Origin: Agrococcus sp. Marseille-P2731
GTDB lineage: Bacteria > Actinomycetota > Actinomycetes > Actinomycetales > Microbacteriaceae
Direction of reading: 5' to 3'
Length of the DNA stretch: 64,000 nucleotides
NCBI RefSeq assembly: GCF_900117395.1
Contig: NZ_FPEG01000003.1
Span: 558,001-622,000, forward strand
Below are positions 33,204 through 53,300 of this stretch, piece after piece. A program made the position numbers and the translations under genes. The notes beneath the pieces are model-generated. The model was given only the letters and a program-made list of their open reading frames with translations. It made no database searches and was not told the DNA's origin. How positions within the stretch are numbered: the first letter of the stretch is position 1; each line of letters begins with the position of its first letter.

Positions 33204-36200
33204 CTACAGGAGCGGCTCCTGGTCGTCGCGCGCCCGCCGCGAGCGCCACACGAGCAGCCCACCGAGGAGCAGCAGCAGCGCGGCACCGCCCGCGATCAGC
33301 GGGATCGGCACCTCCATGCCCGTCTGCGGCAGGCCCGTGCCCGGGTGCTCGGGGCTCGGCACGTCGACCGTCGCGGAGGCGCCGTCCGTCGGCGGCTCCA
33401 TGCCGGTCGGCGGCGTGCCCGTCGCCGTCGCGTCGTTCACGACCGTGTCGCCCTCGATGTCGGCCGCGGTCAGCGCATAGGTCGCCGTCGCCGCGACCGT
33501 CTCGCCCGGCAGCAGCACGCCCGCCTGGCCCGGCCAGGTGTAGGCGATCTCGGACAGGCCCGGCATCGCATCCGCGATCGACACCTCGGTCAGCGTCGTG
33601 CTGCCCGTGTTCGAGACCTCGAACGCGTAGGTGATGCGGTCGCCGACCTCGCCGATCGCGCCCTCCTCCACCGCGCCGACCTTGGTCAGCTCGATGCCGG
33701 TGGTGCGCGGCAGCTCGGTCGTGGTCTCGTCGCCCGGCGTCAGCGGCGCGGGGACCGGCGCCCCCGGTGCCGTGGGCGGCGTCGCCGTGCCGGTGGCCGC
33801 GTTGTGCACGGCGCCTGCGTCGAGGTCGGCCTGCGTCAGCGCATACGTCGCCGTCGCCGTCGCGACCTCGCCCGGCAGCAGCACGCCGGGGCGCGCCTCG
33901 TCAGGCCAGGCGTACTCGATGGTCGACAGGCCCGCGAGCTCGTCGATCACCGCGACACCCGTGAGCGTCGTCGTGCCAGCGTTCTCGAGCCGGAAGCCGT
34001 AGGAGATCGTGTCGCCCACCGAGGCCGGCGCGCCGAACAGCGGCGCCGCGTAGCCCGCGGTCTTCTCGAACAGCAGCTCGGAGCGCTGCTGCAGCGGCGT
34101 CGTCGTCTCACCCGGCTCATCGGGCCCGTCGGTCGATGCGAGTGCGGCGTTGCGCACGAAGCCCGCATCGATGTCGGCCTGCGTCACCGCATACGTCGCC
34201 GTCGCGGTCACCGTCTCGCCCGGCGCCAGGACGCCGGCCTCGCCCGGCCACGCGTAGGCGAGCTCCGACAGTCCCGCCATGGGGTCGTCGATGCCGACGC
34301 CGGAGAGCGTGCGGGTGCCGTCGTTCGTCACCACGAAGGCGTAGGTGATGACATCGCCGGGCTGCGCGTCGCCCTCAGCGTCGAGCGTGCCCGACTTGGT
34401 GAACGTCAGCGAGCCGAAGCCGGGCGTCGGGGTCGTCACGGAGTCCTCGTGCTCGACGGGCCCGCCGCCGGGCACCTGGCCACGGACGACGACCGAGTTC
34501 TCGACCGATCCGCGATCGAGATCGGCCTGGGCGATCGCGTAGGTCGCGGTCGCCGTCACCGTCTCGCCGGGCGCCAGCACACCGGCCGCACCGGGCCAGT
34601 CGTAGGCGATGTCGCCCAGCCCCTCGAGCTCGTCGCTCAGCGCCACCCCGGTCAGGGTCACGGTGCCCGTGTTGGTCGCCGAGAACGCGTAGGCGATCTC
34701 GTCGCCCACGAGCCCGGCACCGGTCACGGTCGACGACTTCTCGACGTCGAGGGCGCCGCGCTGCTGCGTGCCGACCTCTGCCGAATCGCCGTCGGTGACC
34801 GTCTCGCCCGTGGGCGAGGCGGCGGATGCGGTGGCGTCGTTCACGACGCGGCCCGCGTCGATGTGGGCCTGCGTGAGCACTGCGCTCGCGCTCGCCGTGA
34901 CGGCCTGCCCCGGCGCCAGCACGCCGGACTCGCCCGGCCAGGCGCCGAAGGCGATGTCGCTCAGCCCCGGCAGGGGGTCGTCGATGGCCACGCCCGTGAG
35001 CGTGACGTCACCGGTGTTGACCACCTCGAAGGCGTAGTCGACGCGGTCGCCCGCGACGCCGGCGGCGCCGGGCGCGAGCGTGCCGAGCTTCGCGAGCCGC
35101 AGCGACGGGTGCCGGTCGATCTCGACCTGCTCGGTCGCGCTCGGCTCGAGGGTGTCGCCGTCGGGCGTCGTGCCCGTCGCGGTCGCCGTGTTGTCGACCG
35201 TGCCGGCGTCGACGTCGCCCTGCGTGATCCCGTAGGTCGCGGTCGCGGTGACCGTCTCCCCCGGCGCGAGCACGCCGACCTCACCCGGCCAGGAGTACTC
35301 GAGCGGGCTCAGCCCCTCCATCGCGTCGTCGATGGCGACGCCGCGCAGGGTGGTGTTGCCGGTGTTGGTGACCTCGAAGGTGTACGTGACGGTCTCGCCC
35401 AGCGCGGGCGCGGCATCCGTCGACGCGGTCTTCGTGAACGCCATGCTCGGCGACTGCACGATCGTGACCACCGCCGTCGCGTCGTCGTCGACGGGGCCCA
35501 CGGGCGAGCTGCCGCTGGCGACCGCCGTGTTGTCGACGCGCCCTGCGTCGACGTCGGCCTGCGTGAGCACGTGCGTCGCGGTGACCGTGAGCGTCTCGCC
35601 GGGGGCGAGGCTGCCCTCGGTCGTGGCGCCGCTCCAGTCGTAGGCGAGCGCGTCGGCGGCGAACATCGGGTCGTCGACCGTGACGTCGTCGACCGTGACG
35701 GTGCCGTCGTTGACGACGACGATCGTGTAGTCGACCGCCTCGCCGACCGCACCGGTCGAGCCTTCGGGCAGCTGGGCGCCCTTGTCGGTGGTGAGGCTCG
35801 GCAGCTGCGGCAGCGGCAGCGTGCTCGAGTCGCCGGCCTCGATCGGCTCGCCGCCGTCGGGGGTGGCGGATGCGGTGGCCTCGTTCACGACGGAGCCCGC
35901 GTCGACGTGGGCCTGCGTGAGCGTGAGCGTGGCGGTCGCGGTGACCGTCTCGCCCGGCGCCAGCTCGCCCTCGACGGCCGCGGTCGACCAGTCGATCACG
36001 GGCGCCGAGACGCCCTCGAGCGCGTCGACGAGCGCGATGTCGCGCAGCGTCACCGTGCCCTCGTTCGCGAGCTCGAAGCGGTACTCGACCGCCTCGCCCA
36101 CGGCGTCGGCGTCGTTGACGACGCGCTTGTCGAGCGTCAGCAGCGGCGTGCCCTCGAGCGCGACGGTCGCGGAGTCGCCCGCCTCGACGGGGTTGCCTCG

Positions 36201-39200
36201 CAGATCGGCGGCCGCGACGGTCGCCGTGTTCTCCACCAGCCCGGCGTCGACGTCGGCCTGCGTGAGCGTGTAGTCGGCGGTGGCGATGACCTGCTCGCCG
36301 GGGGCGAGCTGCCCCTCGATGGCGGCGGTCGACCAGTCGATCACGGGCGCGCTGAGGCCCGGCAGCGGGTCGCTCAGCACGATGGAGGTGAGCGTGCGCG
36401 AGCCCTCGTTGGCGATCACGAGCTCGTAGGCGACGGTGTCGCCCGCGACGCTCGCGGCGCCGGCGGAGGCCACAGCCGACTTGTCGAGCGAGATGCCGAT
36501 GGTGCCGGGCGTCAGCAGCCGCTCGTCGTCGTCGACCGCGATGCGGTCGCCCGACGGCGGCTGTGCGGAGGCGGTCGCCGTGTTGTCGACGAAGCCAGCG
36601 TCGACGTCGGCCTGCGTGAGCGCGTAGGTCGCCGTCGCCGTGACCTGCTCGCCGGGCGCCAGCTGCCCCGCGGTGCCGGGCCACTCGCCGAACGCGATGT
36701 CGCTGAGCCCCGCCAAGGGGTCGGTGAGCTCGATCGTGGTGAGCGTGACGTCGCCGTCGTTCCGCACCACGAGCGTGTAGGTGACCTCGTCGCCCGCGAC
36801 GCCGGCCGCACCGTCCTCGAGCGTCGCGGCCTTGTCGAGCACGAGCGCGGGCTGCGTGGTGATCGGCACCGTCACCTCGTCGGTCGGCCGCACGGGCTCG
36901 CCGACGGGCGGCGCGCCGACAGCGGCCGCGCTGTTGGTGACACCGCCGGCATCCACGTCGGCCTGCGTGATCGTGTAGGTGGCGGTCGCCGTGGCGATCT
37001 CGCCCGGCAGCAGCACCCCGGCGTCGCCGGGCCAGCTGTAGTCGAGCTCCGAGAGGCCAGGCAGCGGGTCGCTGACCGCGACGCCCGAGAGCGTCACGTT
37101 GCCGGTGTTCTCGAGCTCGAAGCCGTAGGTGACGACCGAGCCGAGCGCCGGCGCGTCGACCTGCGCCTCCTTCGCGAAGCGCAGCGAGGGCGAGGCCTCG
37201 AGCGTGTCCGTGACGGATGCGTCGTCGCGGGCCACGACGCCGGCGGCGGCGCCGCTCGGCGCGGTGCCGACGGCGGTCGCCTCGTTCGCGATCGAGCCGC
37301 GGTCGACGTCCGCCTGCGTGAGCACGTACCGGGCCGTGGCGGTGACGACGTCACCGGGAGCGAGGACGCCCTCGGTGCCCGGCCACTCGCCGAAGACGAT
37401 GTCGCCGAGGCCCTCGAGCTCGTCGCTCAGCGCGACGTCGGTGAGCGTCACCGTGCCGGTGTTCTCGAGCGTGAAGGCGTAGTCGACGCCGTCGCCGGCG
37501 CTGGAGCCCCCGAGGACCGAGGTCTTCTCGAGCGAGATCGACGGCAGCTGTGCGAAGGGCACCGTGTCGGTGACCGTCTCGCGCAGCGGCTCGCCGGCGG
37601 GCGGCGTCGCGGCCACGACGGCCTCGTTGACGACGCTGCCGGCGTCGACGTGCGTCTGCGTCACGACGAGGTTCGCGGTCATGACGACCGACTCGCCCGG
37701 CAGCAGCACGCCCTCGGCGCCATCCCAGGTGGTGCCGGTGATCTCGAGCCCGTCGAGGGCATCCGTCACCTCGACCTCGCGCAGCGTGACGTGGCCGTCG
37801 TTCGTGGCGACGATCGTGTAGGGCACGGTCTCGCCGACCACGAAGGCCGAGCCCTCGTGCGACTTCTCGATCGTGATCGAGGGCGCCGCGCCGAGCGGTT
37901 GCGTGTGCGCGGCCTCGTCGGCGACCGGGCCCGCTGTCGCCGTCGTGCCCGTGACGGATGCCTCGTTGACGACGGCGCCCGCGTCGGCGTCGGCCTGCGT
38001 CAGCACGTAGGCGGCGCTCGCCTGGACGGACTCGCCCGGCGCCAGCGCACCCGGCTCGCCCGGCCACTCGCCGAAGGCGATGTCGCCGAGACCCTCGAGC
38101 TCGTCGCTCAGCTCGATGCCCGAGACCGTGACGGTGCCGTCGTTCGTGATCGTGAACGCGTAGTCGATCGTGTCGCCCGTGACGCCGAGCGCGCCATCGC
38201 GCAGCTCGCCCGTCTTCTCGAGCGCGATGCTCGCGCGCTGCAGCAGCGGCACGCGGTCGTCGTCGGTCGTCACCGGCGGCGTGATGCCGTCGCGCGGCGG
38301 GGCGCCGGTGACGCTCGCCTCGTTCAGGATCTCGCCGGCGTCGACGTGCGCCTGCGTCACCGCGAGCGTCGCGGTCGCCGTGACCGACTGGCCAGGCAGC
38401 AGCGTGCCGGCGGTGCCGGACTCCCACTCGCCGTAGGCGATGTCGCCGAGGCCCGTGAGCGCATCCGACACCGTCACGTCGGTGAGCGTGAGGCCGCCGA
38501 CGTTCTCGACCAGGAATGTGTAGGTCACGTCGTCGCCGACCGCGAGCGGGCTCGCGGGCGCTTCGTGCGACTTCGTGAGCTCGAGCAGCGCAGTCGCGCC
38601 CAGGCCCTGCGTGTGCGCGGCCTGGTCGTCGACGGGGCCGGCGGGCGTGGTGCCCGAGGCGGATGCGTCGTTGACGACGGTGCCGGCGTCGGCATCCGCC
38701 TGGGTCACGACGTAGACCGCTGTCGCCTCGACGGACTCGCCGGGCAGCAGCGTGCCCGACTCGGCCGGCCAGTCGCCGAAGGCGATCTCGCCGATGCCGG
38801 GCAGCGCGTCCTCGAGCTCGATGCCCGAGACGGTGACGTTGCCGTCGTTCGTGATCGTGAAGGTGTACGTGAGCGCGTCACCGGCATCGCCGATGCCCGC
38901 GAGCTCGCCGGTCTTCAGCAGCTCGATGCTGGCGATGCGCTCGAGGGCGACGCGATCGGTGTCGCTGTCGCTCGGGTCGTCGCCGCGAGGAGCGGTCGCC
39001 GTCGCGGATGCCTCGTTCAGGATCTCGCCGGCATCCACGTGGGCCTGCGTGACCGTGAGCGTCGCGGTCGCCGTGACCGACTCGCCGGGCAGCAGCACGC
39101 CCTCGGCGGCCGGCCACTCGCCGTAGGCGATGTCGCCCAGGCCCGGCAGCTCGTCGGCCACGGAGACGTCCGCGAGCGTGAGCCCACCGGTGTTCGTGAC

Positions 39201-42200
39201 GAGGAAGGCGTACTCCACCTCGTCGCCGACCGCGAAGGTGCCGGCGGTGTGCGACTTGTCGATCTCGATGGCCGAGACCGAGCGCAGCTCCTGCGTGTGC
39301 TCGTCTGCGTCGGAGACCGGCTGGCGCGTGGGCGTGAGCCCCGACGCGGTCGCCTCGTTGTCGATGGAGCCGCGATCGGCGTCCGCCTGCGTCACCGCAT
39401 ACGTCGCGGTGGCCGTGACCGACTCACCGGGAGCGAGCACGCCGTCGATGCCGGGGAACGGGCCGAAGGCGATGTCGCTGAGGCCCTCGAGGTCGTCGGC
39501 GAGCGCGATCGCCGCGATCGTGACGTTGCCCTCGTTCTCGATCTCGAAGGTGTAGGTCACCGTGTCGCCCGCGTTGCCGACGCCGCTCGTCAGCGCGCCC
39601 GTCTTCGTGAGCGTCAGGCGCGGGGTCGGCTCGAACGGCACCGTGTCGGTGTCGTCGTCGGAGACCTCGGTGTCCTGCGGTGTCGTGCCGACGACCGAGG
39701 CGGTGTTGTCGATGGCACCGGCGTCGATGTGCGCCTGCGTCACGACGAGCGTCGCCGTCGCGGTGACCGACTGCGTCGGTGCGAGCACGCCGGCCTCGCC
39801 CGGCCAGGTGCGGTAGGCCAGATCCGACAGGCCCTCGAGCTCGTCGCTCGCCTCGACGCCCGTGAGGGTGAGGTCACCGGTGTTGGTGACCACGAACGAG
39901 TACTCGACGGTGTCGCCGACCGCATAGTCGCCCGCGGGGTGCGTCTTGTCGATCGACAGCGCGCCGACGGCGGGCAGCGGCTCGACGTGCCGCGCGCTGT
40001 CGCCGACGTCGCCGGCGGTCGCGGTCGTGCCGGTGGCGGATGCCTCGTTCACGACCTCGAGCGCGTCGGCGTCGGCCTGGGTCAGGACGAGCGAGGCGGT
40101 CGCGGTGACCGCCTCGTCGGGCGCGAGGACGCCGGGCACGCCCGGCCACGTGCCGAAGGCGATGTCCGTGATCCCCGCGAGCTCGTCGCTCAGCGCGATG
40201 TCCGAGACCGTCACGTCACCGTCGTTCGTGATCGTGAAGGTGTAGTCGATGCGGTCGCCGGCGACGCCGTCGACGAGGTCGACGAGCGAGCCCTCCTTGA
40301 CGAGCGACAGGCTCGGCGACTGCGCGAGCACGACCGTGTCGTCGTCAGTGACCGACGGCGTCGGCAGCGTCGCGCGCGGCGGCGTGCCGGTCGCGGTGGC
40401 CTCGTTCTCGATGAGCCCGGCGTCGAGGTGCGCCTGCGTCACCGCGAGCGTCGCGGTCGCGGTGACCGACTGGCCCGGCAGCAGCGTGCCCTCGGTGCCC
40501 GACTCCCACTCGCCGTAGGCGATGTCGCCGAGGCCCGGCAGCGCATCCGCCACCGTCACGTCGGTGAGCGTGACGTCACCCGTGTTGGTCACCAGGAAGC
40601 CGTAGGGCACGACGTCGCCGACGCCGAAGCCTGCGCCGGTGTGGGACTTGGCGATCGAGAGGCCGGGCGCGGCGCCGAGCGCCACGGTGGCGTCGTCTGC
40701 ATCGGCCACGGGGCCGGCGGTCGCGGTGTCACCCGTGACGTCTGCGGTGTTGTCGACCAGGCCCGCGTCGGCGTCGGCCTGCGTGACCGCGTAGGTCGCG
40801 GTGGCCGTGACGACATCGCCAGGTGCGAGGGTGCCGGGCTCGCCCGGCCAGAGCGCGAAGACGGGCTCGCTGAGGCCGTCGAGCTCGTCGGTCAGCTCGA
40901 CACCGGTGACGGTGACGTTGCCGTCGTTGCGGATGCTGAACGCGTAGGTGATCACGTCGCCCGCGACTCCGGTCGCGCCCTCGGTGAGCGCGCCGGTCTT
41001 GACGAGCGTCAGCACGGGATCCTGCAGCAGCGCGACCGTGTCGGTGTCGGTGCCGCTCGGGGCCGGGCCGCGGGGCGCGGTGGCCGAGGCGGTCGCGACG
41101 TTCACGATCTCGCCCGCGTCGAGGTGCGCCTGCGTCACGGTGAGCTGCGCGGTCGCGGTGACCGTCTCTCCGGGCAGGAGCACGCCATCGGCAGCGGGCC
41201 ACTCGCCGTAGGCGATGGCGGTGAGGCCCGGCAGCGCGTCGGCGATCGAGACGTCGCTGAGCGTGAGGCCGCCGGTGTTCTCGACCACGAAGGAGTAGTC
41301 GACGACGTCGCCCACGGCGAGGCCGTCAGCCGTGTGCGTCTTGTCGATCGTCAGCGCGCCGACCGAGGCGAGCGGCTGCTCGTCGGTGTCGGTCGCCTCG
41401 ACCTCGCCGTTCTCCTGCGTCGAGCCCGTGGCGGTCGCCGAGTTGTCGACCGTGCCGGCATCGGCATCGGCCTGCGTCACCGCGTAGCTGGCGGTCGCCT
41501 CGACCGACCCGCCCGGCGGCAGCTCGCCCTCGGTGCCCGGCCAGGTGCCGAAGGCGATGTCGCTGAGCCCCTCGAGCTCATCGGCGAGCGCGATGTCGCG
41601 CACGGTGACGGTGCCGGTGTTCGTGATCGTGAACGTGTAGTCGATGGTGTCGCCGGGGTTGCCGACGCCGCTGAGCGCGCCGTCCTTGACGAGCGTCAGG
41701 CTCGCCGTGCCGGGCAGCGGCACGGTCGCGTCGTCGGTGTCGCTGACCGGCTCTGCGTCGTTCGGCGGGGTGGCGGATGCGGTGGCCTCGTTCACGACGC
41801 CGTTGGCGTCGAGGTCGGCCTGCGTCAGTGCGCGCTCGGCGCTCGCCGTGACCTGCTGGCCGGGCGCGAGCGTGCCGGGCGCGGCAGCGTCGGGCCAGGC
41901 GCCGAAGGCGACGCCGGCCGGGAACATCGGGTCGTCGATCGAGACACCGGTGACGGTGACGTCGCCGGCGTTGCGCACGACGAAGTCGAACTCGACCACG
42001 TCGCCGACCGCGCCGGTGCTGCCCGTCGCGAGCGACGCATCCTTCGTGAGGACGATCGATGCGTCGGTCGAGAGCTGCACGTCGCCGTCGGCGCTGTCGG
42101 AGACCGGCTCGCCGCGAGCCGGGGTGCCGGAGGCGGCGGCGGTGTTCTCGACCACGCCGCGGTCGACATCGGCCTGCGTCACCGTGTACGTCGGGCTGGC

Positions 42201-45200
42201 GGTGACGCGCTGGCCCGGCTGCAGGGTGCCGGGAGTGCCCGGCCACGTCAGCGTGAAGCCCGTGAGGCCCGCGAGGTCGTCGGTGAGCGTGACCCCGGTG
42301 AGCGCGACGTTGCCGGTGTTCTCGGCGACGATCGCGTAGCTGATGGTCGCTCCTGCGACGCCCTCGCCCGAGAGCGTCGGGGTCTTGGTGACCGTGATGC
42401 CCGGCGCGGCGGGCAGCTCGACGCGCTGCTCGTCGGAGTCGCTCGTGCTCTCGCCCTCGAGCGAGGATGCGAAGACGGTCGCGGCGTTGTCGACGAAGCC
42501 GCGCTCGATGTCGGCCTGCGTGAGGACGTAGGTCGCGGTCGCGGAGACCGACGCTCCCGGAGCGAGCGTCGCGGGCTGCTCGGGGTCGGGCCAGGCGCCG
42601 TACTCGATGGCGCTGATGCCCGGGAGCGCGTCGACCAGGACGACGCCGGAGAGCGTGAGCGGGCCGTCGTTGACGATGTCGAAGCCGTAGGAGATCGTGC
42701 TGCCCACGACGGCGCCGCCCGTGAGCGCGCCCGTCTTCGTGAGGGCGATGCTGGGCTCGACGACGATCGGGAGCGAGTAGTCGTCGATGACGCTGGTGCT
42801 GGCACCATCCGGCGTCGTGCCGGAGACGATCGCGGTGTTCTCGCGCGTCAGCGCGTCGACGTCGGCCTGCGTGAGCGTGTAGGTCGCGGTGAGCTCGACC
42901 GACTGGCCGGGCAGCAGCACGCCTTCTTCTGCAGGCCACGCCTGGGCGGTGGGCGTCGAGAGGCCGGGCAGCGGGTCCTCGACGGTGACGTCGGTGAGCG
43001 TCGTGTTGCCGGTGTTCTCGACCACGAAGGTGTAGACGACCTCATCGCCCGCGATGCCCTGCGCGCCGTCTGCGAGGGTGCCCGTCTTCTCGAGCGAGAA
43101 GCGGGACGTCTGCGGAACGAGCACGCGGTCGTCGTCGGTCGTCACGGGGTTCTCGCCTCGCGGCGAGGTCGCGGATGCGATTGCGACGTTGTCGACGAAG
43201 CCCCCGTCGATGTCGGCCTGGGTGAGGGTGTACTGCGCCGTGCCAGTCGCCGACTGGCCGGGGAGGAGCGTGCCGGCGGCCGCGGGCCACGTGATCGCGA
43301 CCGGTCCGTCGACGAGGTCATCGGCGATCGCGACAGCGGTGAGCGTGACGTTGCCGGTGTTGGTGACCGTGAAGTCGTAGGCGACGGTGTCGCCCTCGAG
43401 GCGCATGCCCTCGGCGAGCGAGCCCGACTTGTCGAGCGTGAGCGCGGGGCGGGAGACGATCGGCACGATCGCCGTGTCGTCGTCCTCGACCGCAGCGCCC
43501 TCTGGCGAGGTGCCGCTGACGACGGCCGTGTTCTCTGCGCGACCCGCGTCGCGCTGCGCCTGCGTGACCGACCAGGTCGCGGTCGCGGTCGCCGTCTGTC
43601 CGGGTGTGAGCGTGCCCGCGTCGCCGGGCCAGGTGTAGCTGATCGTCGCGCCGCCGAGGTCGGCGTCGTCGAGCGCGACCTCCGTCAGCGTGACGTTGCC
43701 GCTGTTGACGATGGTGAAGGTGTAGTCGATCCGGTCGTCGGCCACGCCCGGTCCGCCGAGCACGAGCGTGCCGGCCTTCGCGAGCTCGACGCCGGGCTCC
43801 TGCTCCAGCGAGATCGTGAAGGAGTCGGTGTCGGTGGCATCGGCGAGCCCGCCGGGCGGGGTGCCCGAGACGTTCGCGGTGTTGTCGAGTCGGCCCGCGT
43901 CGACCTCGTCCTGCGTCAGCAGGTGCGTCGCCCGGAAGGTCATCGACTGGCCTGCCAGCAGCGTGCCGGCGTCGCCGGGCCACTCGCCGACGACCTGGAG
44001 CTCGTCGGCGGCGAACAGCGGGTCGCTGACCGTCACGCCCGTGAGGGTGGTGTTGCCGTTGTTCGTGACGACGAGGTCGTAGACGGCCGGGTCGCCCGCG
44101 ACGCTGCCGCCGGTGAGGGTGCCGCGCTTCTCGATGTCGATCGAGGGCTCGCGCTCGACGACGACGCGGGTGCCGCCCTCGTCGCTGATCTGGGGGCCGG
44201 TCGGCGGCGTGCCGACGACCGTCGCGGTGTTGCGCGCCTCGCCCGCATCCGCCTGCGCCTGCGTCAGCGCGGCGGTCGCCGTGGCGGTGACGGTCTGGCC
44301 GGGGGCCAGCTGACCGGGCGTGCCGGGCCAGGTGTACGAGAGCGCGCCGAGGCCCGGCATCGGGTCGCTGATCGCGACGCCGGTGAGCGGCACGTTGCCC
44401 GTGTTGCGCGCGGAGAAGGTGTAGACGATCGGGTCGCCCGGCATGCCCTCGGCGAGCACGCCCGACTTCAGCAGCTCGAGCGCAGGGAGGCTCGGGATCG
44501 GGTGCGTCGCACCGTCGAGCGCTGCGACCCGGTTGCCGGAGGCATCGGAGCCCTCGACGCGGGCGTTGGCGTTCACGACCGAGCCGCGGTTCACGTCGGC
44601 CTGCGTCAGCACGTAGGTGGCGCGAGCGATGACGGTCTCGCCTGCCGCGAGGGTGCCGGAGGGGCTGGCGGGGTTGCTCGACGTCGCCCAGTCGATGGCG
44701 AGGCCCTGGAGGCCCGCCATGTCGTCGGTGAGCACGATGCTCGTGAGCGGGCTCGTGCCGGCGTTGCGCACGACGAAGGCGTACTCGAGCGTGTCGCCCG
44801 CGCGCGCGGTGTAGTCGGCGCCGGGCGAGACGCGCTTGTCGAGCTCGATGTCGGTGTACTGGATCACCGAGGGGTCACCCGCATCGCGCACGGCGACGCC
44901 GCCCGAGGTCTCGGCGCTCACGGTCGCGACGTTGGTGTAGCCCTCGAAGACGGGCGGCCCGACGCACTCGTAGGAGATGGACTGGCCGATGGCGAGGTTG
45001 CCGATGACGCGGTCGCAGGCGGTCGCCCACGGGTCGCTCACCCGCACGTTCCGCAGCGGCGCGGAACCCGTGTTGCTCACCACGATCGTGAAGGTCGGGA
45101 TCTCTCCCTCGACGAGCTGCTGCAGGTCGTCAGCACCGTTGACGCTCTTGTCGACGGTGACGGCACCCACGGGCACCGAGAGCGCGACCGACTGCAGCAT

Positions 45201-46358
45201 GTAGGAGTCGCCGGTCGTGCCGAGGACCAGCTCTGGCTGCACCTGCCCCGTGCCGATCGCGGTGAGCGGCGCGTCCACCACCGTCATGCTCGCGTTGTAG
45301 AAGCTGCCGGTCGACGTGCCCTGGTACCGCACCGACGACGCGGTCGAGCCCGTGCCGATGTTGTCTGTCACGCCTGTCGGTGAGGTGATGCGCGTTCGCG
45401 CTCCGCTGGGACCGTTGCGGTACTCCGCGTAATCGCCCACGATCGCGGCGTCTCCCTCGCCGATGGAGAAGCTGGCGCGCGTGCCGGGGGCGACGGAGTT
45501 GAACGTGCCGAACGGGACAGTCAGCGGGACGTCCGATGATGCGAGACGCGCGTGGCCGTCAGAGAGGATGACGTTGCGCGCAACCGTGCCCGGGTCGTTG
45601 GCGCTGTAGCTGCCGAAGTCGTACACGAGCGACATCGACCAGCCGCCGAAGCAGCCGTGTCCTTGCGCGAGCCACAGGTCTCCGACGCTCACCAGCTGCT
45701 GCGATCCAGCAGGAAGGCCCGCGAGCAGCGACGTCACGTCGGCTCGGCCCGAGTAGTAGTAGGACTCGTTCGTGTTGACGGTCGGCTCCGTCGTGAACGT
45801 CGCGCCAGAGACGACCTGCACCGGGCCCGTGCCGATACGGACGCGCGGCATGCGGTCGCGGTACGAGCCAGTGGGCACCGAGCCGGTCACGCCGGCGTTG
45901 GCCGAGCATCGCGCGCCCGTTTGGCCCTGGACGACTCCCGTGTTGCCCATCCAGTACAGCTCGGCGTGCACGACCTTCGCGCCGGCAGGGATGCTGACTC
46001 GTGCCTGGCTCGAGTTCGAGCCCATCGCCGCGGAAGCCCCGACGTTCACCATGTTCAGGTAGTCGTTGTAGTTCACGCGGGAGGTGCCGGTACCGCTGAC
46101 GGTGCCGTTGTGCAGGCCCGTCGGGGAATCGCTGCGCTGAGAGAGCACAGGGGTGGAGGCGACGAGGTTGCCGTTGCCGATCATCACGTAGTCGCCGTTG
46201 ACGATCTCGTCGTAGCTCGACGTGACCGGCTTGATCACGGCCGCCTCGGCCGCCACCGCTGGCGTGAAGACCACGGCGGTCGCTGCGAGGAGCATCGTCA
46301 GGCCCGCCGCGATCGGCTTGGTGATGGAGCGGCGGTGCGTGCGGGCGCGAGGGTGCAT
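33204..46358 (-). CDS. Giant LPQTG-anchored surface protein with ~34 DUF11-like repeats
   Basis: About 4,384 residues in one uninterrupted frame. It has a signal peptide ([10 protein letters not shown], then hydrophobic [14 protein letters not shown], cut near AVAAEA), a ~370-residue N-terminal domain ([20 protein letters not shown] to about [12 protein letters not shown]), then about 34 immunoglobulin-like DUF11/TIGR01451 modules of ~115 residues. Each module runs from a 'L-L-K-G' strand through 'Y-F-V-NTGN-TLT-V--D-LPGL' and '[24 protein letters not shown]' to 'N-A-ATGT-P'. The C-terminus is LPQTG, a hydrophobic helix and RSRRARDD, a sortase sorting signal. No sortase is in the window. A GTG at 46394 would add 12 residues. 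It is probably a very long adhesin or cell-surface stalk. Confidence 0.93.
37560..41712 (-). repeat. Six two-module super-repeats (~692 bp) within the giant surface-protein gene
   Basis: Modules 10-21 alternate between two types. Even modules begin with a K-T-G or K-D-G strand and contain TQADADAG or a near variant ([15 protein letters not shown]); odd modules begin K-S-H or K-T-H and contain TQAH(L/V/I)DAG or a near variant. The pair length is about 692 bases. Matching DNA recurs at multiples of this: CACTCGCCGTAGGCGATGTC near 38425, 39115 and 40506. This implies that a two-domain unit was the unit of amplification. Confidence 0.75.
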
Positions 46359-46394
46359 CGAGTCAGCAATCTTCGTTGGGGAGAGAGCACGCAC

Positions 46395-46571: not shown

Positions 46572-47390
46572 ATGCGAACGCGCGAGGACATCGAATGCTG
46601 GCTCACCGACATGGACGGCGTGCTCGTCCACGAGAACCGCCCGCTCCGGGGCGCCAAGGAGCTGCTGCGGCAGTGGCAGGACGCGGGCACGGAGTTCCTC
46701 GTGCTCACGAACAACTCGATCTTCACGCCGCGCGATCTCGCGGCGCGGCTGCGCGCATCCGGTCTCGACGTGCCGGAGGCGCGGATCTGGACGAGCGCGC
46801 TCGCCACCGCCGACTTCCTGCACGACCAGGCGCCCGGCGGCTCTGCCTACGTGATCGGAGAGGCGGGCATCATCACGGCGCTGCATGAGATCGGATTCAC
46901 GATGACGGACTCGGATCCGGACTTCGTGGTGATCGGCGAGACGCGCTCCTACTCGTTCGAGGCGATCACGAAGGCCATCCGCCTGATCGCCGGCGGTGCC
47001 CGCTTCATCTCCACGAACCCCGATGCGACAGGCCCCAGCGCCGACGGCATCCTGCCGGCGACCGGCGCCATCAACGCGCTGATCACGACGGCGACGGGGC
47101 GCACGCCCTACATCGTGGGCAAGCCGAACCCGATGATGTTCCGCTCGGCGCTCAACAAGATCGGCGCCCACAGCGAGGTCACCGGCATGATCGGCGACCG
47201 CATGGACACCGACATCATCGCCGGCATGGAGGCCGGGCTGCACACCGTGCTCGTGATGACCGGCATCTCGACCCGCTCGCTCGTCGACACCTACCCGTTC
47301 CGGCCGGACGAGATGCTCGAGGGCGTGTTCGAGCTCGTGGACGCGGCGCCGGTGGAGTCAGAGGTCGAGTCGCCGCGCGACGACATCTAG
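46572..47390 (+). CDS. HAD-IIA (NagD-like) phosphatase
   Basis: A 272-residue HAD-superfamily hydrolase of the NagD subgroup. WLTDMDGVLVHENRPL is motif I with the nucleophile and acid Asp. LTNNS is motif II, VGKPNPMMF holds the motif III Lys, and MIGDRMDTDIIAGMEAG is motif IV. The cap lies between motifs II and III. Substrates are usually small phosphate esters such as p-nitrophenyl phosphate or nucleotides; the true one is unknown. The mRNA is probably leaderless (TAGCCT six bases before ATG). It is divergent from the giant surface-protein gene. Confidence 0.92.
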   Translation: MRTREDIECWLTDMDGVLVHENRPLRGAKELLRQWQDAGTEFLVLTNNSIFTPRDLAARLRASGLDVPEARIWTSALATADFLHDQAPGGSAYVIGEAGIITALHEIGFTMTDSDPDFVVIGETRSYSFEAITKAIRLIAGGARFISTNPDATGPSADGILPATGAINALITTATGRTPYIVGKPNPMMFRSALNKIGAHSEVTGMIGDRMDTDIIAGMEAGLHTVLVMTGISTRSLVDTYPFRPDEMLEGVFELVDAAPVESEVESPRDDI

Positions 47391-47427: not shown

Positions 47428-47546
47428 CGCGACGTTGCTCAGCGGTGGTCGAGCATGCCCTTGTCGATTTGCGCTCCATAACGTCGTTCGCGCAGACTTG
47501 CGCAGGCCGCGCCATCGCCGGCCGACGCACGACCTGAGTGAGATCG

Positions 47547-48185
47547 ATGTTCGCACCCGCACCTCCTGCTGATCAGACCACGGCCCAGGGCCTCCGCGCC
47601 CGCAAGAAGCAGATGACCTACCGCACGATCGCCGACGCCGCACTCACCCTCACGACCGAGCGCGGCCTCCCGAACGTGACGATCGATCAGATCGCCGAGC
47701 GCGCGTTCGTCTCTCCCAGGACGGTGTCCAACTACTTCGCCTCCAAGGAGGCGGCGCTGCTCGCTGCGTTCGACAGCGGGCCGAACGACCTCCTCGACGG
47801 TCTCGCCGCCCGCCCCGCCCACGAGCATCCGCTGCGCTCGGTGCTCACCGTGCTGCTGGAGGACGTGCGCGGCTGGGATGAGGAGCGGCTGCAGCTGCTG
47901 CGCGACAAGGAGGCGCTGCTCGAGGAGAACCCCTCGCTCGTGCCGCATCGCCTGGCGCAGCTCGAGCAGTTCGACGGCGCCGTGCGAGCGATGATCGCCG
48001 CCCGCACGGAGAGCGACCCCGCGAGCGACCTGCTCGCGCAGCTCACGGCGGGAGCGGCCACGGCCGCCCTCAAGACGGCCATCCGCACCTGGTCGGCGAC
48101 CGACGGCGACGCGAACGACCTCGCGGCACTGCTCGAGTGCGCGTTCGACGCCTTCTCGAGCGGGCTGCAGCCCGACCTCCGCTAG
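47547..48185 (+). CDS. TetR-family transcriptional regulator
   Basis: A 212-residue TetR protein. The N-terminal helix-turn-helix is clear: RKKQMTYRTIADAALTLTTERGLPNVTIDQIAERAFVSPRTVSNYFASKEAALLAAFD. The ligand domain is helical and acidic, typical of the family, with no informative signature. I take ATG 47547; a GTG three codons earlier (47538) is also possible. It ends ten bases from the convergent HTH gene. The target is unknown; a motif shared between its own upstream region and that of the giant surface-protein gene makes that gene a candidate. Confidence 0.88.
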   Translation: MFAPAPPADQTTAQGLRARKKQMTYRTIADAALTLTTERGLPNVTIDQIAERAFVSPRTVSNYFASKEAALLAAFDSGPNDLLDGLAARPAHEHPLRSVLTVLLEDVRGWDEERLQLLRDKEALLEENPSLVPHRLAQLEQFDGAVRAMIAARTESDPASDLLAQLTAGAATAALKTAIRTWSATDGDANDLAALLECAFDAFSSGLQPDLR

Positions 48186-48195
48186 CAGCGTCCGG

Positions 48196-48855
48196 TCAGC
48201 CGAGCCGTCCGCGGTCGTCCATCCGGCGGCCGTTGGCGCGGATGCGCTGCTCGACACCGCGCGGCGTGACACCGAGCAGGGCCGCGAGATCCTGCACGGC
48301 CATGCCTGCCTGCACCAGGTTGCGCAGCGCCGCCGAGCGCTCGCGCATCGCGGCCTCCATCTGATCCATCGCCTCGCGGTAGCGAGCGCAGGCCTCGGCG
48401 ACCCGCGGGTCGCTGCCCGCCTCGTCGAGGGCGGGCGCCTCACCGGCGTCGAGCAGGTCGCTCAGGCGCTTTGCCACCACCCGCTCGCCATCGATGTCGC
48501 GCCGCCAACGGCTGCCGTCGAAGCCGACCTGCACCGGCACGGCGGCGCGCTTCGAGGGCGTGCGCGGCGCATCGATCGCGTGCCGGTCGGCACCGATGGC
48601 CTCGACCACCTCGGCCTGCGGCACGCCGAGCGCGCTCGCGATGGCTGCGCTGCTCGCGAGGCTGGGCTGCGACCGGCCGTTGAGCCAGCGGCTCACCTGG
48701 GACTGCCCGATGAGCCCGTTCGAGGCGCGTGCGACGTCGATGCCGCGCAGCCCCTGCTCGCGCATCTGATCGCGCAGCCACGAGGAGAACGCGGGCCGGT
48801 CACCGGCGGATGCACTGGGCTCGACGTCGGTCGGCTCGGGCCTGAGATCACGCAT
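48196..48855 (-). CDS. Helix-turn-helix (XRE-type) DNA-binding protein
   Basis: A 219-residue protein with two putative DNA-binding modules. Near residues 25-85 is an XRE/Cro-type HTH (FSSWLRDQMREQGLRGIDVARASN, then GQSQVSRWLNGRSQPSLASSAAIASALGV). Near the C-terminus is a second short HTH (VQDLAALLGVTPRGVEQRI). The middle is charged and helical (AEACARYREAMDQMEAAMRERSAAL). ATG 48855 is preceded by GAAAGGAC. It lies 89 bases downstream of the membrane-anchored surface-protein gene and may be the third member of the sigma-fusion/surface-protein group. Confidence 0.8.
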   Translation of the reverse strand: MRDLRPEPTDVEPSASAGDRPAFSSWLRDQMREQGLRGIDVARASNGLIGQSQVSRWLNGRSQPSLASSAAIASALGVPQAEVVEAIGADRHAIDAPRTPSKRAAVPVQVGFDGSRWRRDIDGERVVAKRLSDLLDAGEAPALDEAGSDPRVAEACARYREAMDQMEAAMRERSAALRNLVQAGMAVQDLAALLGVTPRGVEQRIRANGRRMDDRGRLG

Positions 48856-48944
48856 CGCACGTGTCCTTTCCATCGGTGGCAGCTGACGACGATGGGCATC
48901 CAGTGTCCGCGGCACGGCGGCGGCTGGGCGGTTAAGGACGAAGG

Positions 48945-51857
48945 TCATGGCATTCGCTCCGATCTGCGGTTCCTGATGAGTGTTCGCGCGAGCAGCGCGA
49001 GTCCGGTGAGCAGCAGCAGCGCTGCGATGCTGGCGAGCACGGGCGGCAGCAGCTGCAGCGCCGGCGGTGCTGCCTGCGCGCTCGAGAGCGGCGGGGCATC
49101 GCCCGCGCCCGGATCCCGCTCTGCTGCCTCGTCGACCGGCACGCAGTCGATGCGCTCCGATCCGGCCTCGCCGACGCGCTCGCAGATGGCGGTGCCGCCC
49201 CCGAACTGCACGGCTGCCGACTCGCCGTCCGCGAGCGCACCGAGCGAGACCGGCTGACCGGTCAACGGATCGATCACGACGATGTCCTGGCCGTCCGCTG
49301 CACCGCTCGAGATCTCGAAGCGCCAGACCACCGATGTCGCGCCCACCGTTCGCGCGGGCCGGGTGGGCGACTGCGCGCTCGGCGGCGCCGGCGCCGGGGC
49401 GGGCGCGGCGACCGCCGGCGGCACGGGCGGATCGACGACGACGGGCGGGCGCGGCGCGTCACCGCGACCGGGGAACGGGATCGAGCTCACGGGGGGCTGC
49501 GGCGGGCGAGCGGGCGGGTCGACCACGACGGGCGGGCGGCCCGGGCTCGGTGGCCCCGTCTCCGCGCCGCCGCCCGGGGGCGGCCCTGGCGCGGGTCCGA
49601 CGCGCGGAGGGGCCTCGCCGACGTACCACGACGCATCCGTCGCAGCGCTCGGCTGCGCCTCGAGCGGCCGGCCGCGCGGGTCGACCGCGGTCGCGCGCGC
49701 CACCGTCGTGCCCTCGTAGGCCCCCTCGATGACGATCGCGCTCGAGGTGAAGCGACGCGTCTCGCCGGGGGCCAAGGCGCCCAGCTCGTCGCTCGTGGCC
49801 GGGCGCAGGCCCGAGCTGTCATCACCTGCGACGAACCGCTCTGCCACCTCGAGCGCATCGAGCATCGCGTTGCCCGTGTTCGTCACGACGTGGCTCCACC
49901 GCACGGTGTCGCCCGCACGCAGGCGCGGGCCGGGCGCGGCGCCGTCGGGCCATCCCTCCACCGCGCTCTCCACGCGCAGCGCGGGCGCCGCGACCGGCGT
50001 CACGCTCGCGCGCGTCGAGGTGAAGGACTCGGCGGCGCCCCCGGAGCTGCCCGAGGCAGTCGCGTCGTTGACCGCGCGGGCACCAGCGAGCGCGTCGCTC
50101 GGCATGCGGCTCGCGAGCTCGAGGTCCACCGTCGCACCCGGTGCCACCGTCCCGAGCGCCGCGCGGAACGCGACCGCACCGGCGGGGTCGCTCGACCAGG
50201 AGCCCGTGTCGGCGGACGTCGCATCCCGCGAGTACTCCACGGTCGCGCCTGCTGGCACCTCGATCGCTCCCGCGAGCGCCAGCGAGAGCTCGCTGCCGCG
50301 CTCGTCGCCGACGGCGGGCAGGCGGTCGAACACCACGACGTCGTGGATGGGGCGCGGCAGCTCGTTGCGCACCTGCACCCGCCAGCGCGCGAGCTCACCC
50401 GCCCGAACGGTGGCCGAGCTCGCCCAGGCACCGCCTTCAGCAGCCGCGCTCGCCTCCAGCCGCACGTCCCCGGCGCCGGTCACGACGCTGGAAGCCGACA
50501 GGTGCGCGATCGCGTCGCGCGCAGGGTCGAAGTCGTGCACGTCGGCGCTCACGTGCGGGGCGTAGAAGCCGAGGGGCACCTCGGTGCGGGCCGCGTCGCT
50601 CGTCGACGCCCACGCCTCGAACTCGACCGGAGCCCCGGAGTCGAGTGCCGCGGGACGCGCGGCGACGGGGATCGCGTAGCGATAGCCGTCCGAGAGCTCG
50701 AAGCGGTGGCGTGGCTCACCCGCCGCGCGCACGGACGCGACCTCGTCGAGGAGCAGCACCACCACCTGGCGATCCCCGAGGGTCTCGGTCGCGACGCGCA
50801 CGCCGTCGCCGATGTCGGGCACCGCGCGGCCGGTCAGCGTCTGAGCCGCCGCGCGCGAGACTCCCGTCTCTGCGTCGTAGACGACGCCCCGTGGCAGCAC
50901 CACCCGCACGAACGCGTCGGTGATCGGCCGCCCCGCCGGGTCGGTGTTGACGACGGTCGCCGTGATCGGCGCGCTCGTGCCGAGCCCGATCGTCGTCGGC
51001 GCCTCGACGTTCGTCGTGAGGTTGACGCGGTCGGCGATCGTCACGCCCACGGCGTCGCGGTCGGCCAGCCGCTCGCCGCCGATCGTCGTCCCCGCAGCGG
51101 TGACGGCTGCGCTGAGGTCGCCGGAGGGCGGTGCCCCGGTCGTGAAGGAGGGCAGGCTCGCGACGACGTCCGCTCTCACGTGGACCTCGGCGCGGCCGGG
51201 CACCCGCGTCGCGGCGTCCGGCGAGACCGTCACGCGCCAGCTCGTGAGCCGCTCGCCCGCGGCGAGCTCGAGCGCCTGGTCGAAGCCGCTCTCGAGCCAG
51301 CCGCTCGAGCCTGCCGGCTGCACCGCGATGCGCGCATCGCTCGCCGTGGTGGAGTCGGTCGGGACGAAGCGCTGCCAGCCCGCGCCCGCATCCGTCGTGT
51401 ACTCGACGGCGTAGGGCACGGCCGCGCGCGCGAGCTGCGGCGAGAAGTCGATGCGCATGCGGTAGACGTCGAGGTGGTCGGCCGCCGGATCGGCGCGGTG
51501 CGTGCGCGCGTCGCGGCCAACCGCATCCGTCACCACCAGCGACTCGAGGCCGCCACCGGTGTAGGAGGTGATGGCGGAGAGCTGCTCGTGCCACCGCCCA
51601 CTCTCGAGCGCGAGGGTCTCCGCGCCGGCGTTCAGCTCGGTCGAGATGCGCTCCGTCGCGTCGCCTCCGGGCGCGGGGTCCGGTGCGTCATCGGTGCGCT
51701 GCGCCTGCCATGCGCCAGCGGCATCCGTCGGAGCGGCGGCAGCGGCATCGGGCAACGAGGACGTGGCGAGCGCGACGGCAGGGATGAGCGCCAGGATGAG
51801 CGCTCGTGCGCGCCGCAGCGTCTGACTTCGCCTGATCCATGCATTGCTCGCGTGCAT
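48945..51857 (-). CDS. Secreted, membrane-anchored surface protein with DUF11-like domains
   Basis: A 970-residue protein. A signal peptide (RRARALILALIPAVALATSS) precedes several Ig-like beta domains. Residues ~525-640 and ~650-760 look like DUF11 modules (RVQVRNELPRPIHDVVVFDRLP; WSHVVTNTGNAMLDALEV). A Pro-rich linker (~775-860, with repeated PPVVVDPP) acts as a stalk, then a small domain with a Cys pair (AICER, DCVP), then a C-terminal membrane helix followed by RNRRSERMP. There is no LPXTG, so it is anchored by the membrane rather than the wall. GGGCGGA precedes ATG 51857. It lies 123 bases after a sigma factor gene whose C-terminal domain is outside the cell. Confidence 0.8.
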   Translation of the reverse strand: MHASNAWIRRSQTLRRARALILALIPAVALATSSLPDAAAAAPTDAAGAWQAQRTDDAPDPAPGGDATERISTELNAGAETLALESGRWHEQLSAITSYTGGGLESLVVTDAVGRDARTHRADPAADHLDVYRMRIDFSPQLARAAVPYAVEYTTDAGAGWQRFVPTDSTTASDARIAVQPAGSSGWLESGFDQALELAAGERLTSWRVTVSPDAATRVPGRAEVHVRADVVASLPSFTTGAPPSGDLSAAVTAAGTTIGGERLADRDAVGVTIADRVNLTTNVEAPTTIGLGTSAPITATVVNTDPAGRPITDAFVRVVLPRGVVYDAETGVSRAAAQTLTGRAVPDIGDGVRVATETLGDRQVVVLLLDEVASVRAAGEPRHRFELSDGYRYAIPVAARPAALDSGAPVEFEAWASTSDAARTEVPLGFYAPHVSADVHDFDPARDAIAHLSASSVVTGAGDVRLEASAAAEGGAWASSATVRAGELARWRVQVRNELPRPIHDVVVFDRLPAVGDERGSELSLALAGAIEVPAGATVEYSRDATSADTGSWSSDPAGAVAFRAALGTVAPGATVDLELASRMPSDALAGARAVNDATASGSSGGAAESFTSTRASVTPVAAPALRVESAVEGWPDGAAPGPRLRAGDTVRWSHVVTNTGNAMLDALEVAERFVAGDDSSGLRPATSDELGALAPGETRRFTSSAIVIEGAYEGTTVARATAVDPRGRPLEAQPSAATDASWYVGEAPPRVGPAPGPPPGGGAETGPPSPGRPPVVVDPPARPPQPPVSSIPFPGRGDAPRPPVVVDPPVPPAVAAPAPAPAPPSAQSPTRPARTVGATSVVWRFEISSGAADGQDIVVIDPLTGQPVSLGALADGESAAVQFGGGTAICERVGEAGSERIDCVPVDEAAERDPGAGDAPPLSSAQAAPPALQLLPPVLASIAALLLLTGLALLARTLIRNRRSERMP

Positions 51858-51886
51858 TCCGCCCTCGACCTCGATACCGCGGCGCA

Positions 51887-51924
51887 ATTTCGCGCCTAAC
51901 CGCAAGACGGGCTCGGCGCGAAAT
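51887..51924. promoter_or_regulatory. Perfect 10-bp inverted repeat ahead of the surface-protein gene
   Basis: ATTTCGCGCC (51887-51896) and GGCGCGAAAT (51915-51924) are exact complements 18 bases apart, in the 123-base gap between the sigma-fusion stop and the surface-protein start. It could be a terminator hairpin or a pair of operator half-sites. A nested GGCGC-N6-GCGCC palindrome reads on the minus strand. Confidence 0.45.
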
Positions 51925-51980
51925 CGTGACAGCGGGCGAGCGACGCGCCGCGCGGGCGGGGTGAGGCGGGTGGAGCGGCG

Positions 51981-53300
51981 CTACTGCACCGAGATCGAGC
52001 CCTCGGCGGTGCCGATCACCGCGAGTGATCCGGAGGCGGCCGTGACCGCCACCGAGTAGGTGCCGGAGGCCGGAGCGCCGTCGAGCGTCTCGACCGACAG
52101 CTCGCCGGCCACCGCGCCCACCGGCAGCTCGCAGGTGCTGCCCCCCGGTGCGTGCGAGCACGTCCAGTCCGCGGGGCCGCTCGCGACCTGCATCGAGTCG
52201 GGCAGCTCGAGCGTCACGGTGACCGGCCCGTCGACCTCGCCCCGCGGCTCGACGGCGACGGCGACATCCGTCGCGCCGGCGCGCTCGGTCGTCGAGACCT
52301 CCATCGCGATGGGGCTCTCCACCACTGCCGGCTCGCGCTGGGCGAGCCACACGCCGCCCGCGGCGAGCGCGACGATCGTGCCGCCGCCGAGCAGCAGCGC
52401 GGTCGTGCGACCGACCTCACCCGCGAGGAGGCCCTTGGCCGGGGCGGCGTGCGCTGCACCGGCCACGGCCGCAGCACCCGCAGCGCCGGCGGCCGCGCCC
52501 TTGACCGCAGCCGTGGTGATCGCTCCGCCTCCGGCGAGGATGAGCGGCAGGGCGGTGAGCACCGCCGGGATGGCCTTGAAGCTCTCGAGCGCCCGCGTGC
52601 ACCGACCGCATGCGTCGAGGTGCGCGCGAGCCTCGGGGGACTTCGCGAGGCCGTCGCGCGAGAGCTCGTCCCGGAATGGCTCGCAGCCCTCGGCGCCGAG
52701 CCGAGCGAGCATGACGGCCCGCAGCTCGATCGCGAGCGCTACGCGCGCCCGCGAGGCCTTCGCAGCGATCGTGTTCGCGCTCTGGCCCTGCTCGCCGGCG
52801 ATGTCGGCGGGCTTGCGGCCGTCGACGGCGGTCTCGTGCAGCACCTTGCGCTGCTCGGGCTTCAGCCGCGCGAACGCGGCGCGCACGGCCGAGCGCTCGA
52901 TCAGCAGCTCGATCGAGGGATGGTCCTGCGGCGAGACCTCGAGCCGGTGCTCCCCCACGGACGCATCGAGGGACACGTTGGCGGTCTCGCGCAGCTTGCT
53001 GTGGTCGGTCGCGAGGTTGCGGATGGAGGTCGTGAGGTAGGCACCGGGATTGCTGGTGGGGCCACCGCCCTTGGCGAGCGACTCGATGAAGCGCAGCGTC
53101 GCGGTCGCCACGAGGTCGTCCGCCGGCATGGTGGGCGATGCGCGCTGGTGCGCGACGTGGAACATCAGCGGCCGCAGCGCCTCCAGCAGCTCGCCGACTG
53201 CGTCATTGTCGCCGCGGCGGGCTCGCTGGAGCAGCCGCTCGAGTCGCTGGGCGGTGGCGCGCTCGGTGACCGCAGCGGCTCGGGGAGCCTTCATCTGCAT
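51981..53300 (-). CDS. Sigma-70-family (ECF-like) factor fused to a zinc anti-sigma domain, membrane segments and an extracellular domain
   Basis: A 439-residue single-chain regulator. Residues ~20-105 are sigma region 2 (LLQRARRGDNDAVGELLEALRPLMF, DDLVATATLRFIESLA). Residues ~135-200 are region 4 with the HTH (RLKPEQRKVLHETAVDGRKPADIAGEQGQSANTIAAKASRAR). Then come H227-x3-C231-x2-C234, the zinc anti-sigma motif, hydrophobic segments at ~244-285 and ~298-320, and ~119 exported residues with a Cys pair (WTCSHAPGGSTCELP) in a beta-sandwich pattern. The factor would be held at the membrane and need proteolysis or conformational release. ATG 53300 follows AAGGGA. The surface-protein gene downstream is the likely target. 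Confidence 0.85.
   Translation of the reverse strand: MQMKAPRAAAVTERATAQRLERLLQRARRGDNDAVGELLEALRPLMFHVAHQRASPTMPADDLVATATLRFIESLAKGGGPTSNPGAYLTTSIRNLATDHSKLRETANVSLDASVGEHRLEVSPQDHPSIELLIERSAVRAAFARLKPEQRKVLHETAVDGRKPADIAGEQGQSANTIAAKASRARVALAIELRAVMLARLGAEGCEPFRDELSRDGLAKSPEARAHLDACGRCTRALESFKAIPAVLTALPLILAGGGAITTAAVKGAAAGAAGAAAVAGAAHAAPAKGLLAGEVGRTTALLLGGGTIVALAAGGVWLAQREPAVVESPIAMEVSTTERAGATDVAVAVEPRGEVDGPVTVTLELPDSMQVASGPADWTCSHAPGGSTCELPVGAVAGELSVETLDGAPASGTYSVAVTAASGSLAVIGTAEGSISVQ

Follow-up and report, generated by a model that had tools for sequence, protein, structure and literature searches.

The actinobacterial ECF groups ECF48, ECF52 and ECF53 are described as fusions of a sigma factor with a zinc anti-sigma part (PMC8999054). 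ECF52 is reported to be exclusive to Actinobacteria, and its first characterised member (2018), SCO4117 of Streptomyces coelicolor, is built of sigma, zinc-finger, membrane and Pro-rich parts together with a carbohydrate-binding module, the last of which was proposed to be ligand-binding (PMC5826349). According to the same account, expression of SCO4117 was raised in a strain whose truncated version of the protein had lost the zinc finger, membrane and carbohydrate parts; positive autoregulation was suggested, and release by a protease of unknown identity was proposed (PMC5826349). The only experimentally shown case of proteolytic release is given as IutY of Pseudomonas putida (ECF243; PMC8999054). 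One-piece sigma/anti-sigma proteins of this sort are listed in reviews.

The window, by which we mean the whole 64,000-nucleotide stretch of Agrococcus (family Microbacteriaceae) DNA analysed here, belongs to a genome of 3.0 Mb in 3 contigs. Its minus strand encodes, in this order, a 439 amino acid fused sigma/anti-sigma membrane protein (51981-53300), a surface protein (48945-51905) and an XRE-type regulator (48196-48948). Beyond the regulator there are two plus-strand genes, which were named from our own reading of their sequences as TetR-like (47538-48185) and HAD-like (46572-47390), and then a giant LPXTG surface protein (33204-46394) on the minus strand. The fused protein resembles the ECF52 kind, represented by SCO4117, and a one-piece sigma/anti-sigma protein is not in itself new, as the earlier note had recognised for actinobacteria and as the accounts of ECF52, ECF48 and ECF53 bear out (PMC5826349, PMC8999054). 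The core of the locus is thus of a known kind; what is new is the recurring pairing with a large surface protein, for which no description was found in the open-licence papers searched.

Pfam analysis of the fused protein revealed Sigma70_r2 (PF04542) at residues 38-100 (53001-53189, minus strand; 32.6 bits, cut-off 24), the same bases being returned by a whole-genome scan, and Sigma70_r4_2 (PF08281) at residues 138-189 (52734-52889, minus strand; 27.4 bits, cut-off 25.7). TIGR02937 was also above its cut-off, and regions 2 and 4, as expected of ECF52, were both present. A structure model built from a 15-sequence alignment showed pLDDT values mostly >90 in the sigma regions and no confident structure for residues 241-344. 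When the sigma part was searched with Foldseek, ECF sigma structures ranked first, many of them with an anti-sigma factor or RNA polymerase; the top entries included SigL, AlgU-MucA, BldN-RsbN and SigmaE-RseA, with low TM-scores (TMt 0.37-0.49 for the first five). There was no second match to this protein in its own genome.

The anti-sigma zinc motif HLDACGRC (H-x3-C-x2-C) begins at residue 227 (residues 227-234; 52599-52622, minus strand), and H227, C231 and C234 were invariant in three alignments of 14, 3 and 15 rows. The zf-HC2 model found no match at E 1 in the window protein, yet HLDACGRC aligned with the motif of a Streptomyces griseofuscus homologue (L150) and of 13 others. The same model passed its cut-off in the relatives L138, L146, L147 and L041 and stayed below it in L150 (E 0.014); the relatives that it matched carried the motif at the same place as the window protein. 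The zinc-site residues were kept in 58 of 58 homologous ORFs from a phmmer search that did not require the motif and in 68 of 71 homologues from a profile search, which agrees with the anti-sigma motif proposed in the earlier note. A scan of named genomes gave 33 loci, L150 among them, but its pattern contained the zinc motif itself and it is therefore silent on motif conservation.

Hydrophobic segments were found at residues 243-261 and 301-319. Several family members with only one such segment place it at a distance like that of 301-319. Around the last hydrophobic segment, 109 Lys and Arg residues were counted in the preceding 15 positions and 29 in the following 15 (97 of the 104 family proteins having one), a charge bias that would place the C-terminus outside; residues 301-319 (52344-52400, minus strand) are then likely to be the sole membrane span. 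By prediction, the fused protein therefore has the transmembrane helix and exported C-terminal part of ECF52. Of the domain set that had been read from this one chain, sigma regions 2 and 4, the H-x3-C-x2-C motif and, by prediction, the exported Cys-paired beta domain all held up, while the charge bias reduced the membrane helices to a probable one, the second segment.

Like ECF52, including SCO4117, the window protein has regions 2 and 4, a predicted membrane helix and a predicted exported C-terminal part in one chain, and its putative zinc anti-sigma segment stands between them. Unlike SCO4117, it lacks both a carbohydrate-binding module and an extended exported part rich in Pro, and carries a predicted 112 amino acid Cys-paired beta sandwich instead; Pfam analysis did not return the Pro-rich extension and carbohydrate-binding module expected of ECF52. 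The S. griseofuscus homologue, with a sigma part, a weak zf-HC2 match and NPCBM, has the make-up reported for SCO4117 and shared 29% identity with the window protein in the best pairwise segment. The neighbouring gene also differs, being a surface protein gene in the window and the regulator gene atrA at SCO4117 as described (PMC5826349). ECF48 and ECF53 are alike by description only, with a fused zinc anti-sigma part, one or two membrane helices and an expected proteolytic release (PMC8999054). IutY, likened again by description, is a sigma factor fused to a membrane anti-sigma part from which proteolysis frees the sigma, but it belongs to a Gram-negative iron-starvation system that responds to aerobactin (PMC8999054).

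The exported domain (residues 328-439; 51984-52319, minus strand), modelled alone, was predicted to be a nine-strand beta sandwich with the Cys pair C381/C390 (pLDDT 88.8, pTM 0.81 in the best of five models, which were built from a two-sequence alignment and spanned 49.8 to 88.8). Both cysteines were invariant (W-x-C, later GG...C) across three same-genus sequences including that of the window. The best solved fold was the rat alpha-1-macroglobulin receptor-binding domain (Z 11.8, 110 aligned, 2.8 A), followed by an integrin fold (Z 11.4, 110 aligned, 3.0 A), a chitin-binding fold (Z 11.2, 93 aligned, 2.4 A), a cohesin-like fold (Z 10.7, 110 aligned, 3.4 A) and a basal pilin fold (Z 10.0, 107 aligned, 3.2 A); Foldseek also matched the domain to a fibrillar-adhesin domain (E 3.7e-05). 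The earlier note had called for a comparison with DUF11 folds. The DUF7507/DUF11 repeat profile did not match the exported domain (score 10.3, with 17 of 30 scrambled controls equally high), and neither name occurred among the folds shown in the structure list, an absence that says nothing against such a fold.

One alternative is a ligand sensor: the exported domain would recognise something in the wall or the surroundings, such as a glycan, and the surface protein would serve as an output at most and not as the sensor. Relatives of the window protein carry NPCBM (L150) and a ricin-type lectin (L138) in their exported domains, chitin-binding domains are among the closest solved folds, and ligand binding was likewise proposed for the carbohydrate module of SCO4117 (PMC5826349). 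The window's own exported domain, however, matched no carbohydrate-binding Pfam family, and the model describes it as a common adhesin-like sandwich, the fold of which points to no function or ligand. We regard this alternative as rather doubtful.

The gene that follows the sigma ORF after 75 bases (48945-51905, minus strand; probable start ATG 51857) encodes what the earlier note had described as a secreted, Pro-stalked, membrane-anchored surface protein, and this description was borne out. Pfam analysis showed DUF7507 (41.6 bits) and DUF11 (30.9 bits), both over cut-off, a Pro-rich stalk was seen in the sequence, and a C-terminal hydrophobic segment was found at residues 955-973; the protein ends without a sortase-like xTG signal. 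Its N-terminal part had matches in two of 60 relatives, namely the window's genome and, at three places, another genome of the family (G026), and in none of 23 other same-genus genomes.

The third gene (48196-48948, minus strand) was correctly read as an XRE-type regulator (HTH_3, E 2.1e-11). One could suppose that this protein, and not the upstream sigma, governs the surface gene, and that the sigma acts elsewhere: its ORF overlaps the stop of the surface gene by 4 bases on the same strand, and an inverted repeat with 9-base arms, TTTCGCGCC...GGCGCGAAA, lies at 51888-51923, between the sigma gene and the probable start of the surface gene and close to the latter. Neither arm has a second copy in the window, and the repeat is a possible operator. 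The XRE protein was, however, unmatched at the second Agrococcus locus and at 20 other same-genus sites, and across the family it had matches in three of 298 other genomes, in the HTH domain only, with at most nine candidates scored per genome. Within the searched genomes, then, only the window carries this XRE gene, and we consider its control of the surface gene improbable.

A conserved unit of three genes, as had been supposed, is thus contradicted both by the XRE searches and by the distribution of the sigma gene at this site. A fused sigma match at E 1e-8 was found in five of 24 same-genus genomes, and only in the window's genome and Agrococcus sp. RM44_bin.009 (G005) do coordinates place the sigma between the AEC permease and the HAD gene (2/24); in G008, G021 and G023 the fused sigma is some 50-90 kb away from this site. 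The order in RM44_bin.009 is sigma, surface protein, HAD gene and the start of a giant at the contig end. Seven of the eight matched flanking genes in this genome are 85-96% identical to those of the window and one is 74% identical; the sigma is 46-49% identical.

The suggested link to the giant gained some support in one respect and was weakened in another. The giant itself gave 34 repeat hits with a DUF7507-type profile seeded from its own sequence. The surface gene next to the sigma in RM44_bin.009 differs from that of the window and is related to the giant's N-terminal part (44% over 569 amino acids). Conversely, G013 encodes a giant 96% identical over the N-terminal 629 amino acids and has no fused sigma match, so the giant does not strictly need a fused sigma; G013, G021 and G023 all have relatives of the giant while lacking a sigma at this site.

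Around the HAD gene, other Agrococcus genomes carry different surface genes (20 of the other 22 same-genus sites were examined, G003 and G015 being the two left aside). Pfam analysis revealed a pilin-sortase set in the interval flanked by the AEC permease and HAD genes, which is the place of the sigma, at L113 and another in the place of the giant at L102; L104 and L107 have triplets that resemble that of L113 by hydropathy alone. In G002 and G017 only about 0.7 kb separates the AEC permease and HAD markers. Because of this variety, both sides of the HAD gene (L100-L119) are a swap point for surface genes, occupied by pilin-sortase operons, by giants or by almost nothing, and the sigma is part of one cassette. 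A rival reading is that the sigma is a general envelope sensor that stands beside surface genes only because the stretch collects cassettes, with no functional pairing. Its presence at the site in so few genomes fits such an explanation, as does the finding, set out below, that the majority of fused sigmas in other places lack a neighbour of this kind.

The adjacency was compared with a background in other genomes. In a first set of 99 relatives, 41 had a match at E 0.001, and the stretches around 52 matches and seven more of G026 were fetched; matches weaker than about E 1e-8, often ordinary sigma factors to judge by their length, were for the most part left aside. The 71 fused-sigma-like genes obtained were reduced to 66 in 27 genomes by E <1e-20 and the zinc motif, which is thus given by construction. 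A partner was defined, by length and hydropathy only, as an immediate same-strand neighbour of at least 500 amino acids with a C-terminal hydrophobic segment, and the background consisted of the other genes of the same stretches on either strand. Gene calling was crude and misses some partners: at L070 a small called ORF stands between sigma and partner, and at L055_12881 the upstream gene calls came out empty.

Partners were found beside 24 of the 66 fused sigma genes (20 upstream and 7 downstream, three having both) versus 13 of 505 background genes. In G026 the counts were 16/25 versus 5/139, and outside it 8/41 versus 8/366. Outside G026, the upstream slot alone gave 5/41 (p 0.006 against 8/366) and the downstream slot 3/41 (p 0.09). 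A second sample was drawn from the 111 of 299 family genomes that had a match at E 1e-30, with five candidates scored in each; 20 genes with short and 20 with long open frames were picked by hand, and 38 of them passed the filters. In this sample 6 of 38 fused sigmas had a partner versus 5 of 398 background genes (p 1e-4), although one of these partners (L174) is probably a spurious ORF and another (L182) contains no family that was found. Fused sigmas without such a neighbour numbered 42 of 66 and 32 of 38, respectively. The adjacency is accordingly above the same-stretch background, strongly in G026 and moderately outside it, which speaks against a mere gathering of cassettes.

The same holds for two further observations. 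Over the 16 pairs of G026, sigma and partner similarities agreed (Mantel rho 0.73, 0 of 5000 permutations), as might be expected of duplicated units; across genomes this agreement was weak (rho 0.19, equalled or exceeded in 70 of 2000 permutations). Three pairs of G026 and one of G037 have the partner gene first and the sigma gene overlapping it by 4 bases, as is typical of operons. Taking both sides together, we think it unlikely that the sigma is simply a hot-spot neighbour. As to several origins of the pairing, the partner label required 12 changes on a 66-row tree, at least 10 of these by well-supported branches, a count inflated by lost or missed partners. The idea that a short exported part implies a partner was dropped: it separated the first set (21/30 versus 3/36, p 3e-7) and failed in the second sample (3/13 versus 3/25, p 0.39).

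Fourteen partners were scanned with Pfam, namely those of the window, L045, L055, L056, L057, L067, L069, L070, L085, L159, L166, L167, L168 and L182. All except that of L182, in which none was found, contained Ig-like, SdrD_B, SpaA, DUF5979, DUF11, DUF7507, GEVED or RCC1-type domains (13/14), and many partners, judged by eye, end in a sortase-like xTG signal. G026, a genome of the same family, encodes 25 fused sigmas (L037, L045, L050, L072, L075 and others), 16 of them beside giant anchored proteins, many with LAxTG-like ends.

There seems to be a correspondence between the type of exported tail and the family of the partner, a lead that was noticed after the fact in the sequences. The exported pattern of the window type (W-x-C...C) occurs in three Agrococcus members and in L166 with DUF7507 partners, three of which also have DUF11 (the window, L070 and L166; that of L070 is not in the pair counts). 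L057, also of this type, has an RCC1-type partner, and L077, L083, L052, L088 and L039 show the pattern and have no counted partner; L093, the tree neighbour of L057, shows no such pattern and lacks a partner. Acidic-Thr-Trp tails go with one partner cluster in three genera, with SdrD_B and DUF5979 in the two scanned members (L167 and L168), the other members having been joined by sequence similarity. The Trp-tail pattern, written after the tails had been seen, fits 4 of 104 sigmas, all four with a partner; L037_16628, whose partner belongs to the same cluster, deviates from the pattern in its tail. That sigmas had exchanged the Trp tail as a module was unsupported: a single clade was not rejected (AU p 0.81) on a tree of 102 rows from which the long-branch L041 and L068 had been left out. 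In a separate group, three fused sigmas of one type (L066, L169 and L171) share a terminal LYFGDWT-x-W motif; upstream of L066 and L171 lies a protein with a C-terminal hydrophobic stretch, which at L171 is just under the length limit.

The reading that we favour, by a small measure, is that of a tethered ECF52-like sigma dedicated to the adjacent surface protein, the gene of which it would control. Sigma regions 2 and 4 would lie in the cytoplasm, held by the zinc-binding anti-sigma segment, with helix 301-319 crossing the membrane and the Ig-like domain outside. A signal from outside, which most likely reflects the neighbouring surface protein (whether it has arrived, is assembled, or carries a load or ligand), would bring about cleavage of the tether, and the sigma so released would then drive transcription, probably of its own sigma-surface protein operon. 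That the anti-sigma part inhibits the sigma until the tether is cut is suggested by analogy with SCO4117 and IutY, and the proposal that the signal comes from the surface protein, by docking on the exported domain, follows from the pairing. Control of the partner gene would be achieved most simply by autoregulation of a shared transcript.

In cell-surface signalling, a surface protein passes a signal on, and this served as our working analogy. A bolder version, which we offer tentatively, is a single-membrane form of such signalling, in which each large wall-anchored protein is encoded with its own tethered sigma, the exported domain or tail of which docks on the partner and reports its state. 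On that one-sigma-per-surface-protein reading, some lineages would have expanded to a switchboard, as with the 25 fused sigmas, 16 of them partnered, in one genome. If true, this would be an actinobacterial system with one switch per surface protein. For a subset of the fused sigmas, the repeated association with giant adhesin-like proteins, which co-vary with them in one genome, points to a candidate partner and target; what such sigmas sense can thereby be put to the test in Agrococcus or its relatives.

Promoter searches bore on the same proposal. A -35/-10 pair shared by the sigma, surface protein and giant genes, which had been suggested, did not emerge: nothing beyond chance was found upstream of the three in the window. 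In 15 partner upstream regions of G026, one of which (L037_17814) has its start off the stretch, no exact 4-base dyad with a spacing of 14-20 occurred in at least six regions; the search yielded only Shine-Dalgarno-like TAGGGGA(T) near starts. RNA elements were absent from the window at gathering score, and in seven loci of G026 the only hits were one tRNA and one tmRNA.

Two further observations concern the window's genome as a whole. The assembly is marked as 7.69% contaminated. On contig 3 (G000:C3), a stretch of at least 13 kb is duplicated in inverted orientation with 100% identity (L033/L034, at about 111-124 kb and 269-283 kb), which represents either a recent duplication or an assembly fault.
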